A DNA stretch of 64,000 nucleotides from Paenibacillus sp. DCT19 (lineage in GTDB: Bacteria > Bacillota > Bacilli > Paenibacillales > Paenibacillaceae). The notes below the pieces were generated by a model. That model was not told where the DNA came from, did not search any database, and was given only the letters and a program-made list of their open reading frames with translations. The position numbers and the translations under genes are program-made. Below are positions 4,348 through 40,710 of this stretch, one piece after another (positions within the stretch are counted from its first letter, which is position 1; the number at the start of each line of letters is the position of its first letter). The stretch lies in assembly GCF_003268635.1 (NCBI RefSeq), contig NZ_CP029639.1, forward strand, positions 4,103,501 to 4,167,500, written 5' to 3'.

Positions 4348-5919
4348 TCAGTTTTCTGCGACGCCTGCCGGACTTACAAAATAATCAGCATTAGCAAGTT
4401 TCAATCCATGATGTTTGCTCTTGGCCGGGAACATCGCTTCCGCTGTTCGAATCGCCTTGAGCAGCGCTTTGGCTTTGTTCACCGTCTCTTCATATTCCTT
4501 CTCAGGCACTGAATCCCATACAATTCCTGCTCCAGCCTGCACATAAGCTTTTCCCTTTTTGAAAATAATGGTCCGGATCGTAATACAAGAATCCATATTG
4601 CCCGAGAAGCCAAGATAACCAATCGCTCCCGCGTACGCCCCACGTGCCTCACGCTCAAGCTCCGCAATAATCTCCATCGCACGCAGTTTTGGTGCACCAG
4701 ACACGGTTCCCGCAGGCAGACAGGATAGGAATGCATCGAAGAAATCCTTATCTTCTCTAAGCTCACCCGTTACATTCGACACCATGTGCATAACGTGAGA
4801 GTACCGCTCGATCTCCATAAACATGTCACACTTCACGGTGCCAAAGTTTGATACCCGTCCCAGATCGTTTCGACCCAAGTCAACCAGCATCAAATGCTCT
4901 GCACGCTCCTTCTCATCCTGTAACAGATCTGCTGCAAGTGCACGATCTTCACTCTCTGTTGCACCTCTTGGACGAGTCCCTGCAATGGGTCGTGTCGCCA
5001 CACGATTTCCATCTATTTTAACTAGCGCCTCAGGCGAGGTTCCTACGATAATCTCATCATCCATCTTCAGATAATACATATATGGTGATGGATTCAACGT
5101 TCTAAGCACTCTGTATACGTGAAGCGGAGAAACCTCGGTATCAATGTGAAAGCGCTGGGACAGCACCACTTGAAAAATATCTCCCGCGCGGATGTATTCT
5201 TTAGCCTGCTCCACATTGCCAATAAACTGCTCTTTCGTCAGATTGGAACGAACATCGCCAAGCTCAACATCACCCGGAATCGAACGTGGATTCAAGTTTT
5301 CACCTGGCCCTTGTTGCTGCAAACGCTCTGCAGCCTGCTCCAGCTTCTCAGAAGTCAGTGCATAAGCTTGGCGGATTTCGTCATCCGTAGCTCCATCTCG
5401 TACATGCACATTACCTACAAGCAGCATCTGTTGCTTCACATGGTCAAACACGATAATTTGGTCACAGAACATGAAGCGAATATCATCCATTTTTAGATCA
5501 TCCAGTGCGTGTGCCGGAAGCTTCTCATAATATTGCAGTAAGTCGTAACCGAAAAATCCAATCGCTCCGCCCGTAAACGGAGGAAGCTCATCATCTTTTG
5601 GGCTACGATACTTGCGCAAAAGAGCTTTCAGTTCTTCAATCGGCTTACCTGGAAGCTCCCGCGTTTGCCCAGCCTCTTCGACCACGATTCGGCCTTTTTT
5701 GGCGGAAATCATCAAGAACGGATCAGTACCGATAAAGGAATATCTCGCCCATTGAATTCCACCCTCAACACTTTCCAACAGGAATGCCCGGTCATTGTCG
5801 GCATAACGGCGGAAGATTCGGATTGGCGTCTCCATGTCAGCCAAGATCCGTTTAACAACGGGAATCAGATTATATTCATTTGACATTTTCAGTACTTGAT
5901 TAACGTTTGGCGTTATCAT
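4348..5919 (-). CDS. trpE: Anthranilate synthase component I
   Basis: First enzyme of tryptophan synthesis, converting chorismate to anthranilate with a glutamine amidotransferase partner. No trpG lies in the operon, so the partner must be encoded elsewhere (PabA serves both pathways in B. subtilis). The ATG at 5919 (MITPNVNQVL) is chosen because AAAGGA lies 9 nt upstream; this gives 523 residues. The C-terminal chorismate-binding domain shows TRPIAGTRPRGA, DLGRNDLGRVS, LPAGTVSGAPKLRAMEII and QAGAGIVWDS. It is the first gene after the leader terminator at 5955-5984, so its transcription depends on readthrough. Confidence 0.97.
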   Translation of the reverse strand: MITPNVNQVLKMSNEYNLIPVVKRILADMETPIRIFRRYADNDRAFLLESVEGGIQWARYSFIGTDPFLMISAKKGRIVVEEAGQTRELPGKPIEELKALLRKYRSPKDDELPPFTGGAIGFFGYDLLQYYEKLPAHALDDLKMDDIRFMFCDQIIVFDHVKQQMLLVGNVHVRDGATDDEIRQAYALTSEKLEQAAERLQQQGPGENLNPRSIPGDVELGDVRSNLTKEQFIGNVEQAKEYIRAGDIFQVVLSQRFHIDTEVSPLHVYRVLRTLNPSPYMYYLKMDDEIIVGTSPEALVKIDGNRVATRPIAGTRPRGATESEDRALAADLLQDEKERAEHLMLVDLGRNDLGRVSNFGTVKCDMFMEIERYSHVMHMVSNVTGELREDKDFFDAFLSCLPAGTVSGAPKLRAMEIIAELEREARGAYAGAIGYLGFSGNMDSCITIRTIIFKKGKAYVQAGAGIVWDSVPEKEYEETVNKAKALLKAIRTAEAMFPAKSKHHGLKLANADYFVSPAGVAEN

Positions 5920-5954: not shown

Positions 5955-5984
5955 AAAAAAACCTCTACCATCAGGTAGAGGTTT
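5955..5984 (-). terminator. trp leader attenuator (intrinsic terminator before trpE)
   Basis: On the minus strand an 11-bp perfect stem (AAACCTCTACC, loop TGAT, GGTAGAGGTTT) is followed by a T tract and ends 35 nt before the trpE start. A strong terminator upstream of the first gene of a biosynthetic operon is the hallmark of attenuation. The 5-prime arm is complementary (one bulge) to GTAGAGTTT at 6344-6336 in the TRAP-like site. Confidence 0.9.
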
Positions 5985-6263
5985 GGTTATAAGCTGTATT
6001 CAACAAGTTCGTGTTTTATAAATAACAAGTCCCTATACATCTTTTGCCGGATTCATCAGGTTATCGGTAGATTAAACGTAAATCCACTTGTACACATGTT
6101 CCGTTCAGGTGCACTAATCAAATCCCTTCATCCATGAGTATATTCATAGAATCTGGTCTCAATTTGACCAAGCTATACCAAAACAAAACGATGTCACTGG
6201 ACACGTCTCTTTCCCTAATCCTGTAATCCTATAGCGCGACGTACCGCGAATCAGTTGACCGGC
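5985..6263 (-). other. trp leader interval without a gene
   Basis: About 280 nt of untranslated leader lie between the (G/U)AG cluster and the terminator. Only very short, poorly initiated reading frames (for example MNILMDEGI) are present. No T-box consensus, tRNA or second terminator was recognised. Its length separates the TRAP-like site from the terminator much more than in B. subtilis. Confidence 0.5.
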
Positions 6264-6346
6264 CTATGTTTCTCCGGCTACCACCCGCTGGACTCTGCTA
6301 TTACTCCACTAGCTCAGCTGCTCTCAGCTCAATCTAAACTCTACTC
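6264..6346 (-). promoter_or_regulatory. TRAP-binding site: run of (G/U)AG triplets in the trp leader RNA
   Basis: On the minus strand triplets begin at 6346 GAG, 6341 GAG, 6336 TAG, 6330 GAG, 6325 GAG, 6320 CAG, 6315 GAG, 6311 TAG, 6306 GAG, 6300 TAG, 6295 GAG, 6290 CAG, 6280 TAG, 6274 GAG and 6266 TAG. Most steps are 5 or 6 nt, exactly the NAG-N2/N3 pattern bound by the 11-subunit TRAP ring. A TRAP gene (mtrB) is encoded 9.5 kb away in this window. The first triplet lies only about 5 nt after the predicted transcription start. Confidence 0.88.
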
Positions 6347-6357
6347 AACTGCTTATC

Positions 6358-6386
6358 ACTATACATGATTCCATTCGGTTTGACAA
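6358..6386 (-). promoter_or_regulatory. Sigma-A promoter of the trp operon
   Basis: Minus strand TTGTCA, 17-nt spacer, TATAGT. It sits directly downstream of the aroH stop (6396) and upstream of the TRAP-like site, so trpEDCFBA can be transcribed independently of the upstream aro genes. Predicted start about 6350. Confidence 0.8.
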
Positions 6387-6395
6387 CCACTGTAA

Positions 6396-6772
6396 TTATG
6401 AACCGGAAGGTGCTGCCAGATCCGGTCGCAATGCCTGCGCACCATTCAGGTAAACATGATTAATTTCATTCTGTGCTTTGGCTGTGTTCACATGCACCAT
6501 AAAACGAATGCATAGCGGCAACGCCCTTGTACTGGAACTTCCAGTGCGCACATTAGCGGCACAAGCTCCCAGCCTTCCAACTGGCGAATGGCCTTTGCAG
6601 GAAAAGCTGCATCCAAATCTCCCGTCATTGTAATCCAGACACTAGAGATATCTTCCGGCGTAATATCATTACGATCTACGATCTCTTGTAACAATATAGC
6701 CGTCTCCTGCAAAATATGTTCTTCGGTGTTAAGCGTGACTGTTGTAGCCCCGCGAATTCCGCGTGTCACCAT
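6396..6772 (-). CDS. aroH: Chorismate mutase (AroH class), frameshifted in this sequence
   Basis: Converts chorismate to prephenate for phenylalanine and tyrosine synthesis. The ATG at 6772 ([12 protein letters not shown]) has AAGGGAG upstream and follows aroB by 4 nt. The frame is normal through [14 protein letters not shown], then diverges at the CCC at 6523-6525; one extra C restores [14 protein letters not shown] and [14 protein letters not shown] to a stop at 6396, giving 125 residues, the usual AroH length (about 127). The conserved C-terminal HVYL...LRPDL is thus intact in the DNA but out of frame. Most likely a one-base sequence error. Confidence 0.9.
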
Positions 6773-6776
6773 GTTG

Positions 6777-7871
6777 TTAATCTCCCTTCTTAAGCAATTC
6801 AATCACTTCGATGACAACTGACACAGGCACGTCTTTTACAATTCGAGCTGCGCCAATGCGATCAGGAATAATGAAGACCATATGTCCTTCACGGAACTTC
6901 TTGTCATGCATCATCGCTTCCATTAATGCATCTGTACCTAGATGACTCGGTAATGTTACCGGAAGGCGCAAGGCACGGAGCATACGAACTGTATCATCAT
7001 ACAGCCCAGCTGGGGCTCCCAGCTTCTCTCCAAGCAATGCTGAGCCAGCCATACCGATCGAGATTGCTTCACCATGTAGGAATTCGCCGTATCCGGCAAT
7101 TGCTTCAATAGCATGACCAATCGTATGACCCAGGTTTAGCAGCGCTCGTTCTCCATTTTCGCGTTCATCTCTAGATACAATCTCTGCCTTAATTCCGCAC
7201 CCACGCTCAAGTCCATAGCCAAGTGCCTCTGGATCAAGAGCAAGTAGCTGCTCTGCATGCTCTTCACACCAATGCGCAAACGCTTCGTCACGAATCAAGC
7301 CATGTTTCAGCATCTCCGATAAACCAGCAGATACATCACGAGGTGGCAACGATTGCAGTGTATCCACATCGTAGAGTACAAGCTCCGGCTGATGGAATGC
7401 ACCGATCATATTTTTGGCAAGTGGATGATTGACAGCCACTTTACCGCCCACACTGCTGTCATGAGCCAGGATCGTTGTAGGGACTTGAACGAATTTGATT
7501 CCACGCATGTATGTAGCTGCAACGAATCCAGCCAGATCTCCTACCACGCCACCGCCCAGAGCAATAATGGCTGAGCTTCGATCTAGCTTGCCTTCAATTG
7601 CAGCTGTCATCATATCTTGATAAACGGATAATGACTTCGAGGTCTCACCAGCAGGAACAACGGCCGAGACAACTGTAAATCCAGCCGTGCTCAGCGTTTG
7701 TTCAAGCGCGGACAAATATTTAGGAGCCACATTTTCATCCGTAATAATCAGTAGCGGGCTTTTCTTCGTTAAACCATATTGCTCAAAAAATTGGGGTGCT
7801 TGTGCCAATAAACCAGAACCAATCAGAATCGGGTATGATCTTTCCTCTAATTGAACTGTTAACTGGCGCAT
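6777..7871 (-). CDS. aroB: 3-dehydroquinate synthase
   Basis: NAD- and metal-dependent second enzyme of the shikimate pathway (DAHP to 3-dehydroquinate). The ATG at 7871 (MRQLTVQLEERSYPI) is 1 nt after the aroC stop; 364 residues. NAD loop and metal/active-site motifs are visible: ALGGGVVGDLAGFVAATYMRG, GGKVAVNHPLAKNMIGAF, LNLGHTIGHAIE and FLHGEAISIGM, carrying the metal-ligand Glu and His residues. Middle gene of aroC-aroB-aroH. Confidence 0.97.
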   Translation of the reverse strand: MRQLTVQLEERSYPILIGSGLLAQAPQFFEQYGLTKKSPLLIITDENVAPKYLSALEQTLSTAGFTVVSAVVPAGETSKSLSVYQDMMTAAIEGKLDRSSAIIALGGGVVGDLAGFVAATYMRGIKFVQVPTTILAHDSSVGGKVAVNHPLAKNMIGAFHQPELVLYDVDTLQSLPPRDVSAGLSEMLKHGLIRDEAFAHWCEEHAEQLLALDPEALGYGLERGCGIKAEIVSRDERENGERALLNLGHTIGHAIEAIAGYGEFLHGEAISIGMAGSALLGEKLGAPAGLYDDTVRMLRALRLPVTLPSHLGTDALMEAMMHDKKFREGHMVFIIPDRIGAARIVKDVPVSVVIEVIELLKKGD

Positions 7872-15873: not shown

Positions 15874-16095
15874 TTATTCGGACTGAATTTCACCATGCTT
15901 GGTAATCAGCGTAGCCTTGCCTCGGATTTTGATGGCAGAAGTATGATTCGTGAATTGAGCAAACATCACTTCTCCCTTATCGAGCTTTTCTGTATGATGA
16001 AAACGCGTGTCTTGGCCCCGAGTTAAGCCGATTACCTGTACACCGTTCTCCTCCGCTCGAATGACAATATAATCACTGCCGGTTGGATGGTCCAT
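15874..16095 (-). CDS. mtrB: Tryptophan RNA-binding attenuation protein (TRAP)
   Basis: TRAP is an 11-subunit ring which, when loaded with tryptophan, binds (G/U)AG-rich leader RNA and attenuates trp expression. The 73-residue product aligns along its length with B. subtilis [51 protein letters not shown]. With the ATG at 16095 the three RNA-binding residues fall at Lys37, Lys56 and Arg58, all retained. A GTG one codon upstream (16098) is an alternative start. The usual upstream partner folE (mtrA) is not adjacent. Its predicted target is the leader at 6264-6346. Confidence 0.95.
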
Positions 16096-16130
16096 CACGT
16101 AACGTCCCCTCTCCTAGTTCAATAGCGTTA

Positions 16131-38668: not shown

Positions 38669-38950
38669 ATGAAAAAATTAGTCACGTTAAACACGATGAT
38701 GGAAAAAAGATGTTGCTTCGTCTTTCAGAGAGCCGATGGTTGGTGAGAATCGGTGGCTGGCAAATGATCTTGAGCGTTCCTGAGTTATTGCATTGAAAAG
38801 TAGAGTAGGTGCAATCGGTTTAGAGCCGTTATCCTCTTCGGTCTTCATTGACCGCTAAGACTGTCGTTGCGAAACGGCGGTGAATTAGGGTGGTACCACG
38901 ACAACTCTCGTCCCTTATTGCGCAAGCAGTATGTGGATTGAGAGTTTTTT
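38669..38950 (+). ncRNA. T-box riboswitch (serA leader, probably tRNA-Ser)
   Basis: The T-box sequence AGGGTGGTACCACG is at 38887-38900. Upstream Stem I shows the conserved AGAGAGCCGATGGTTGGTG distal region (38728-38746). Downstream, AACTCTCGTCCC pairs with GAGAGTT (38941-38947) plus a T tract to make the terminator; the T-box bulge would make the antiterminator instead when uncharged tRNA binds. Serine triplets AGC and TCC occur where the specifier loop is expected (GAGCGTTCC, 38772-38780); I cannot choose between them. The downstream gene is serA, so tRNA-Ser is the likely effector. Confidence 0.92.
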
Positions 38951-39041: not shown

Positions 39042-39104
39042 ATGGTTTTAAGGAATTCCTCTACGATGAGGAGCAGCCTTGACGATAAAGATACACATAC
39101 CTAA
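39042..39104 (+). CDS. 20-codon serine-rich upstream ORF before serA
   Basis: ATG 39042, preceded by GGAGGGAAGG, encodes MVLRNSSTMRSSLDDKDTHT with two pairs of Ser codons (TCC TCT, AGC AGC). Its TAA abuts the serA Shine-Dalgarno (TAAGGAGG), and serA starts 13 nt later. It lies after the T-box terminator, so is transcribed only on readthrough. It may couple translation to serA or sense Ser-tRNA supply; this is inference. Confidence 0.45.
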   Translation: MVLRNSSTMRSSLDDKDTHT

Positions 39105-39117
39105 GGAGGAAGAAACC

Positions 39118-40710
39118 ATGTACAAAGTGTTAGTGTCGGATCCGATTAGTGATCTGGGGATTCAGCAATTGGTGGAAGCAAATGATGTAGTTGTTGAAAA
39201 GAAAACCGGTCTTAGTGAAGATGAGCTTGTTGCCATTATTGGGGAATATGATGCCCTACTCGTTCGAAGCCAGACACGTGTTACCGATCGTATTATGACT
39301 GCTGGTACCAACCTTAAAGTAATTGGCCGTGCGGGCGTGGGTGTAGATAACATTGATCTGGAAGCTGCTACACAACGCGGTATTATTGTAATTAATGCAC
39401 CTGACGGTAATACAATTACGACATGTGAGCATACCTTTGCAATGATGATGGCGCTCGCACGTCATATTCCTCAAGCTTATGCCAAAACAATTCAAGGTAC
39501 ATGGGATCGCAAAACTTTCTTAGGTGTGGAATTACGGAATAAAACTTTGGGTGTCCTTGGTATGGGCCGGATCGGTAGTGAGGTAGCCAAGCGTGCAAAA
39601 GCATTCGGTATGGATATTCTTGCTTATGATCCATTCCTTACACAAGAGCGTGCAGAGAAGCTGCAAGTTAAGCTAGCAAGCGTTGATGATATCATTCGCA
39701 ATGCAGACTTTATGACCGTACACACGCCGTTAACACCTGAGACTCGTCATATGATTTCGCGCCCTCAATTTGAAGTCATGAAAAAAGGTATGCGCATTGT
39801 AAACTGTGCCCGCGGTGGGGTTGTTGATGAGATGGCACTCGTGGAAGCTATTGATGAAGGTATCGTTGCCGGTGCAGCCTTTGACGTGTTCGAAAGCGAA
39901 CCACCAGCAGCAGATCATCCTTTCCTCAATCATCCTAGCATCATCGTTACACCACATTTAGGTGCATCCACAGTAGAGGCACAAGAAAATGTTGCGATTG
40001 ATGTATCGGAACAAGTGCTTCATATTTTGCGTAATGAGCCGTTCAAAAATGCAGTGAACATGCCTGCGGTAGCTCCTACGGTTATGAACAAATTGCAGCC
40101 TTACTTTAAACTGGGCGAAACATTGGGTAGTTTTGCAGCTCAAATTACTCAAAATGCCGTTCAAGAAATCCGAATCGATTATGCGGGTGATCTGTCTGAG
40201 GTCGATACTTCACCATTAACTCGTTATATTGTCAAAGGCATCCTTGCTAGACATCTGGGCGGAGAAGCGAATATCGTTAACTCCATGCATTTGGCTAAAA
40301 CAAGAGATCTGAACGTTGTAGTTAGCCAAACGTCTACGACAAAAGGATTCACCAACTTGATCACCGTTACTCTGGTGACAACACAAGAAGCTGAGGAACG
40401 CCGCGTTGCAGGTACGCTCCTTGCAGGTTACGGTGAGCGGATCGTGCGTCTGGATAAATTCCCAGTAGATATCGCTCCAGAAAGTCATCAAATCCTCATT
40501 TCCCACAACGATAAACCGGGAATTATCGGACGTGTGGGAACCTTGCTTGGTCAAAACGACGTTAATATCGCATCCATGCAAGTAGGACGTAAAATTATCG
40601 GTGGTGCAGCCATCATGATCCTTACTGTTGATAAAGAAGTTCCAAAAGATGTACTTGTTCAACTCACGGCTCTGCCAGAATTAAATACAGCGGTTGAGAT
40701 TGTTCTGTAA
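39118..40710 (+). CDS. serA: D-3-phosphoglycerate dehydrogenase
   Basis: First enzyme of serine synthesis, NAD-dependent. ATG 39118 (MYKVLVSDPISDLGIQQL) with AAGGAGG 8 nt upstream; 530 residues, the long type with an ACT domain. NAD-binding GVLGMGRIGSEVA (about 146), catalytic Arg/Glu/His in NCARGGVVDE and VTPHLGAST. Intervening domain about 315-450; C-terminal ACT domain with HNDKPGIIGRVGTLLG, the site of serine feedback in many species. Expression is controlled by the T-box upstream. No frameshift. Confidence 0.98.
   Translation: MYKVLVSDPISDLGIQQLVEANDVVVEKKTGLSEDELVAIIGEYDALLVRSQTRVTDRIMTAGTNLKVIGRAGVGVDNIDLEAATQRGIIVINAPDGNTITTCEHTFAMMMALARHIPQAYAKTIQGTWDRKTFLGVELRNKTLGVLGMGRIGSEVAKRAKAFGMDILAYDPFLTQERAEKLQVKLASVDDIIRNADFMTVHTPLTPETRHMISRPQFEVMKKGMRIVNCARGGVVDEMALVEAIDEGIVAGAAFDVFESEPPAADHPFLNHPSIIVTPHLGASTVEAQENVAIDVSEQVLHILRNEPFKNAVNMPAVAPTVMNKLQPYFKLGETLGSFAAQITQNAVQEIRIDYAGDLSEVDTSPLTRYIVKGILARHLGGEANIVNSMHLAKTRDLNVVVSQTSTTKGFTNLITVTLVTTQEAEERRVAGTLLAGYGERIVRLDKFPVDIAPESHQILISHNDKPGIIGRVGTLLGQNDVNIASMQVGRKIIGGAAIMILTVDKEVPKDVLVQLTALPELNTAVEIVL

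Follow-up and report, generated by a model that had tools for sequence, protein, structure and literature searches.

A probable TRAP-controlled attenuator leader with a distant terminator upstream of trpE in Paenibacillus sp. DCT19

We found that the minus-strand segment 6351-5920 of the analysed DNA, situated immediately ahead of trpE, probably serves the trp operon as a TRAP-controlled attenuator leader, in which a distant terminator would be governed via a long-range antiterminator. All coordinates refer to the window, i.e., the whole stretch of 64,000 nt that was analysed, taken from a genome consisting of a single contig of 6.67 Mb. As a sequence feature the TRAP leader is real and conserved: its array, its terminator, the mtrB gene and their shared layout can be read directly from the genomes compared. 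The distant terminator, which lies outside the interval covered by the initial sequence-only reading of this DNA, is the more unusual and the most informative feature of the leader.

Gene setting and the MtrB protein

The minus-strand gene order is mtrB, ..., aroB, aroH, trpE and further trp genes; trpE, aroH and mtrB were confirmed by profile, and the other gene names were assigned from sequence. The trpE gene (4348-5919, with its ATG at 5919) matches TIGR00564 with 593 bits. The gene encoding the TRAP protein, mtrB (15874-16098, minus strand), scores 139.4 bits with NF009724 (cut-off 117) and is single-copy in the genome. Its presence in the same window, on which the sequence-only reading had relied, is thus genuine, and the encoded protein retains F, E, K, D, K and R at all six RNA-contact positions when aligned to TRAP of Bacillus subtilis, where F32, E36, K37, D39, K56 and R58 are given as the RNA-binding residues (PMC3184956). 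Of 149 Paenibacillales genomes, 146 carry mtrB, and the FEKDKR set was seen in 71 of 72 MtrB loci, some of which share one genome. According to the same source, TRAP of a Paenibacillus sp. is a probable 12-mer, as judged from K15 and T72 (PMC3184956). In our collection, 35 of the order's 51 MtrB loci possess the K15/T72 pair, and E and S occupy these positions in the window protein and in three further loci; TRAP ring size may vary within the order.

Judged by its trpE, the genome belongs to Paenibacillus: among the 80 further trpE loci fetched for comparison, the best 80 of 560, the nearest is that of Paenibacillus sp. Root52 (L016), and P. taichungensis with other members of its group comes next. 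To these we added 40 stretches beside mtrB from the order and the class, 28 of which carry trpE (18 from the order and 10 outgroups); the 12 with no trpE match were dropped. The window copy of aroH (6488-6802, minus strand) ends prematurely because the reading frame shifts close to the 3' end, giving 94 residues from the aligned start vs. 122-125 in 16/16 close relatives, which may reflect either an error of sequencing or a genuine defect. Elsewhere in the window, a T-box leader (38687-38918, plus strand, 109.8 bits) is located upstream of a phosphoglycerate dehydrogenase-like ORF (39079-40710), the latter named from sequence.

The triplet array and the predicted transcript start

A triplet chain scan delimited a core array at 6293-6346 (minus strand), whose in-register triplets, 10 (G/U)AG and one CAG, follow one another every 4-6 nt. 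It has the make-up of a TRAP leader site, for which some 11 NAG triplets, predominantly GAG or UAG, separated by 2-3-nt spacers and located upstream of trpE are typical; one spacer measures 1 nt, as one step is of 4 nt. The sequence-only reading had counted at least 13 (G/U)AG triplets at 5-6-nt steps, a figure which has to be reduced to the in-register core, for the further triplets at 6264-6292 (CAG 6290, TAG 6280, GAG 6274 and TAG 6266) are irregular. Counted with overlaps, 15 (G/U)AG are found between 6346 and 6264. The chain score of the array is 9.0, while the runner-up in the 64 kb reaches 3.0 and the maximum in 100 dinucleotide shuffles is 6, both strands included. The spacer TA is commoner at array steps 2 (19/48) and 8 (13/47) than overall (87/535), which is suggestive.

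We observed a dense (G/U)AG stretch upstream of trpE in all 99 Paenibacillales leaders, window included, with 8-15 (G/U)AG per 60 nt (median 12) and at most 7 on the opposite strand; shuffled leaders have a mean of 6.3 and a maximum of 12, and 16% of them attain at least 8. Unusually long arrays, with 18 NAG per chain, 17 of them (G/U)AG, were noted upstream of trpE in L040 and L042. As for further TRAP targets in the window's own genome, a fixed-step triplet pattern (one mismatch allowed) gave 7 matches, as compared with 26 when the pattern was reversed, and chains at the matched loci did not exceed 4, but this search is a weak one, since the variable-step trp array itself was missed by it. 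In the same genome, no regular array was found at the pabA/trpG start and no match to TrpP was obtained; a loose irregular (G/U)AG cluster is located where pabB ends, ahead of pabA (1352-1411 of L089). The Rfam search of the leader returned a single match far below the gathering score (E 0.27) and no family at threshold, and the plasmid collection gave no match.

The array is preceded by a predicted promoter, TTGTCA-17-TATAGT (6386-6358, minus strand), with 10/12 consensus matches. It is present as the sequence-only reading had described it, and when the +1 is placed at the seventh base after the -10 (6351), the first GAG (6346) follows 5 nt later, also in agreement with that reading. The proposal that the trp transcript carries a TRAP-type site at its predicted 5' end is supported, and the array is far beyond chance. 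The description of the promoter as lying just after aroH suits the close relatives, in 16/16 of which the -35 is found 8-19 nt past the aroH stop, but has to be qualified for the window, where aroH ends early.

The promoter match is weak when taken alone, because 2.3 such matches (sd 1.5) would be expected by chance in a 1.2-kb stretch and one was found. Together with the upstream aro genes, which are close by and on the same strand, this leaves some room for a real TRAP site that is internal rather than 5'-terminal, the main trp transcript starting elsewhere, e.g., by read-through from aro. We consider this unlikely, since TATAGT is the best-scoring -10 before the array in 75/81 Paenibacillaceae trpE leaders, with a TTG-type -35 and at a fixed short distance that is kept across distant clades.

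In B. subtilis, the TRAP site begins near nt 36. The sequence-only reading had stated that the leader has no room for a 5' stem-loop, which holds for the window if the +1 is as predicted, 5 nt then preceding the first GAG, but is no rule in the order. By automatic call, the array lies at most 20 nt from the predicted start in 70/81 Paenibacillaceae leaders and in 15/18 of those taken beside mtrB in the order. After hand checks, 84/99 leaders of the order possess a 5'-terminal array and 13/99 a hairpin before the array, with two (L068, L075) undecided. In Paenibacillaceae, a hairpin between promoter and array was recognized in 10/81 leaders (8 automatically, L046 and L061 by hand), L046, one of the 70 above, being reassigned on account of a strong hairpin ahead of its main array. 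In total, automatic hairpin labels were altered by hand at 7 loci (L046, L061, L126, L128, L146, L152, and L161) on the basis of their folds, in each case before the tree count; outgroups with a 5'-terminal array numbered 4/10 automatically and 2/10 after hand checks. On a TrpE tree of 109 rows, built quickly, without bootstrap and carrying a long-branch warning, the 21 rows labelled as hairpin-bearing require 9 changes, of which no fewer than 8 fall on well-supported branches, vs. 19.5 for shuffled labels. Given the 13/99 hairpins and the 9 changes, lack of the 5' stem-loop is the usual, but not a fixed, state in the order. A stem-loop of the type GGATTGAACC...GGTTAATCC, common to one clade (L024, L036, L041, L046, and L051), is located directly upstream of the array and resembles the 5' stem-loop of B. 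subtilis in place. As to the view that TRAP control of trp is well supported for the genus, the same layout was indeed seen in most relatives examined.

The distant terminator and a candidate antiterminator

Between the array and trpE, where a TRAP leader has its terminator, we identified a terminator hairpin beside trpE (5959-5984, minus strand), with 11 pairs (5 G-C), the 5' arm AAACCTCTACC at 5984-5974 and a continuous tract of 7 U, three of which lie inside the stem. For comparison, the B. subtilis attenuator stem is described as consisting of 6 A-U and 4 G-C pairs with an interrupted U run (PMC3913778). By its 11 pairs, 5 of them G-C, and its unbroken U run, the window terminator looks the better one. 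Terminator-like hairpins were found upstream of trpE in 81/81 leaders. The 5' arm reads CTCTAC in 83/97 leaders, a count that is not independent, because the arm types searched came from earlier listings, and from which two of 99 leaders (L125, L139), having no terminator with the searched arm types, were dropped.

In the window, 308 nt separate the last in-register triplet from the terminator stem. The array-terminator distance in Paenibacillales amounts to 47-446 nt (median 177; 97 leaders) when counted from where the densest 75 nt end. By comparison, it is 19-37 nt in 8/10 Bacillales outgroups, no terminator being found in the other two; for the outgroups, as for the window, distances were counted from the last in-register triplet and subtracted by hand. 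In L002 and L014, the terminator is located 269-271 nt from trpE vs. 65-119 nt in other members of the window's clade, with around 190 extra bases between the two.

A TRAP ring at the 5' array might itself stop RNA polymerase shortly after the array, the terminator beside trpE being a separate element. Indeed, B. subtilis TRAP is reported to induce termination without the attenuator, provided that an A+U-rich sequence lies just after its site (PMC3913778). In the window, however, the sequence directly past the array is rich in G+C, which by a manual count make up about 37 of the 59 bases that follow 6293. The hairpin beside trpE, moreover, is kept in every one of the 81 leaders, mostly with the same arm, at distances that vary widely, and so we regard a direct stop as distinctly unlikely. 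TRAP might also bind the array and act on trpE translation or on the life of the transcript rather than on termination. TRAP of B. subtilis does repress trpE translation as well (PMC12288461), and a ring at the 5' end could conceivably alter transcript decay. Yet, no hairpin hiding the trpE ribosome-binding site is prominent in folds of 89 nt (z 0.24) and 51 nt (z -1.20), and this explanation, which assigns no function to the conserved terminator, appears very unlikely. Finally, that the triplets form a chance run in a purine-rich stretch is hardly conceivable, for although 16% of shuffled leaders reach the lowest density observed (8), the window array surpasses the shuffle maximum in score and an array precedes trpE in every leader.

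Attenuation at the distant terminator, the reading that we prefer, is consistent with the predicted folds. When the leader is ended at the terminator 5' arm, GUAGAGUUU of the array (+8 to +16) is placed on the arm and the rest forms a long rod (z -3.6); when the terminator is included, it forms instead (z -4.0). The 5' side of the candidate antiterminator is thus predicted to be the array segment GTAGAGTTT (6336-6344, minus strand), partner of the terminator 5' arm. At the array end, GAGTCC (6290-6295) is predicted from folds and hexamer counts to pair with GGACTT (6032-6027), and the stretch in between (6034-6289) to fold as a single long rod. The array 3' part has its predicted partner in GGGACTTGTTATT (6021-6033), a strand before the terminator that is conserved in 14 close relatives. 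Among these, the intervening stretch is variable in the middle and conserved at both ends, and the long-range helix of the array 3' part with GGGACTTGTTATT shows little variation, with one pair changed on two sides (in one sequence), four changed on one side and three broken in one sequence each. At least six arm bases pair upstream in the folds of 67/81 leaders, a count without a shuffled control of its own that used the earlier of two passes of promoter calls, which differ for L024, L049, L050, and L051. Ten of 12 shortened leaders fold with a z below -2 relative to shuffles, the exceptions being L072 and L080, which fold no better than shuffles (z -1.1 and 0.1).

Between clades, changes at the end of the array seem to be accompanied, to a modest extent, by changes in the strand that precedes the terminator. 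Counted as sequences and not as events, the complement of GAGTCC is present in 17/22 strands of the own type vs. 11/73 others, and that of GAGTGC in 9/15 vs. 21/80; 15 hexamer types were compared in all, and the other 13 are either rare or without a clear difference. In 40 clades, drawn by hand from the TrpE tree, own array-strand pairs beat inter-clade swaps in 2000/2000 draws (mean -27.0 vs. -24.5), a result that must partly reflect base composition, as the excess over shuffles is small: a narrower duplex test on 41 clade representatives gave a mean z of -0.47 (se 0.16), with 6/41 below -1.64. In a first and less refined test, the duplex energy of the array with the strand before the terminator showed no excess over dinucleotide shuffles (3/81 leaders in the best 5%), nor was the longest array-strand helix longer than in shuffles for the 41 clade representatives (8.98 vs. 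8.83). The terminator arm class does not covary with the array in the 97 leaders, L130 excepted. Compared with shuffled arms, the arm itself does mildly better (mean z -0.70; 61/97 in the best quarter, only 3/97 in the best 5%). We take the candidate long-range antiterminator, which would overlap the TRAP site and preclude the terminator, to be likely.

A possible mechanism and its relation to known TRAP leaders

In the mechanism that we propose, transcription would start almost at the first triplet and, with tryptophan plentiful, a TRAP ring would bind the array once about 60 nt have been made. The bound ring would keep the array from pairing with the strand some 260-360 nt further on (GGACTT and the terminator 5' arm AAACCTCTAC), so that the terminator beside trpE could form and transcription would stop. 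In the absence of tryptophan, the free array would pair over the distance, the terminator arm would be taken up and trpE would be transcribed; the intervening stretch, folding into a rod, would bring both ends together. Since polymerase would have around 300 nt left to transcribe once the site is made, TRAP should have time to bind without a pause, but by the time the terminator is reached it would be remote from the polymerase, except if the RNA folds back on itself. We infer, as we do the start site, TRAP binding and the long-range antiterminator, that this long interval from binding to decision takes the place of the 5' stem-loop and the pauses of B. subtilis.

For Paenibacillales in general, we put forward more tentatively, as a possibility that may well fail, that TRAP at the 5' end decides a remote terminator (roughly 50-450 nt away) by RNA refolding alone, with the delay in place of stem-loop, pauses and polymerase push. 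The interest of a leader with TRAP remote from the terminator is that it could separate refolding from action on RNA polymerase: should such a leader attenuate, remote refolding would be enough.

As to earlier descriptions, a Paenibacillus trp leader appeared in no title or abstract found among open-licence papers, and mtrB is mentioned in a P. polymyxa genome paper (PMC7773762). For B. subtilis, array and terminator are proposed to be mutually exclusive through an antiterminator, the attenuator being weak and close to the TRAP site (+108 to +133 in a 203-nt leader), and TRAP is argued to do more than refold the RNA, helping to dislodge the polymerase (PMC3913778); pauses dependent on NusA and NusG give TRAP time to bind and are argued to be required for this (PMC12288461). 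The window leader is like that of B. subtilis in its array upstream of trpE, its terminator before trpE and an mtrB in the same region. It differs in that the B. subtilis site is preceded by a 5' stem-loop, whereas here the array begins at about +5 of the predicted start, and in that the terminator is not near the site but 308 nt away.

Bacillus halodurans, with 19 NAG and a 12-subunit TRAP, has triplets beyond the need of an 11-mer, as have L040 and L042 with 18. The B. halodurans stem is described as weak (PMC3913778). The 12-mer residues K15/T72 (PMC3184956) are not both present in the window MtrB, which has E and S. Finally, the other TRAP-bearing Bacillales (10 outgroups, among L145-L162) share with the window the mtrB-trpE neighbourhood and the array upstream of trpE, but differ by a hairpin between promoter and array in 8/10 (hand-checked; 5/10 automatically) and by the short distance to the terminator seen in 8/10. 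With both the pre-array hairpin and the array-terminator distance varying between relatives, the order Paenibacillales offers a natural series.
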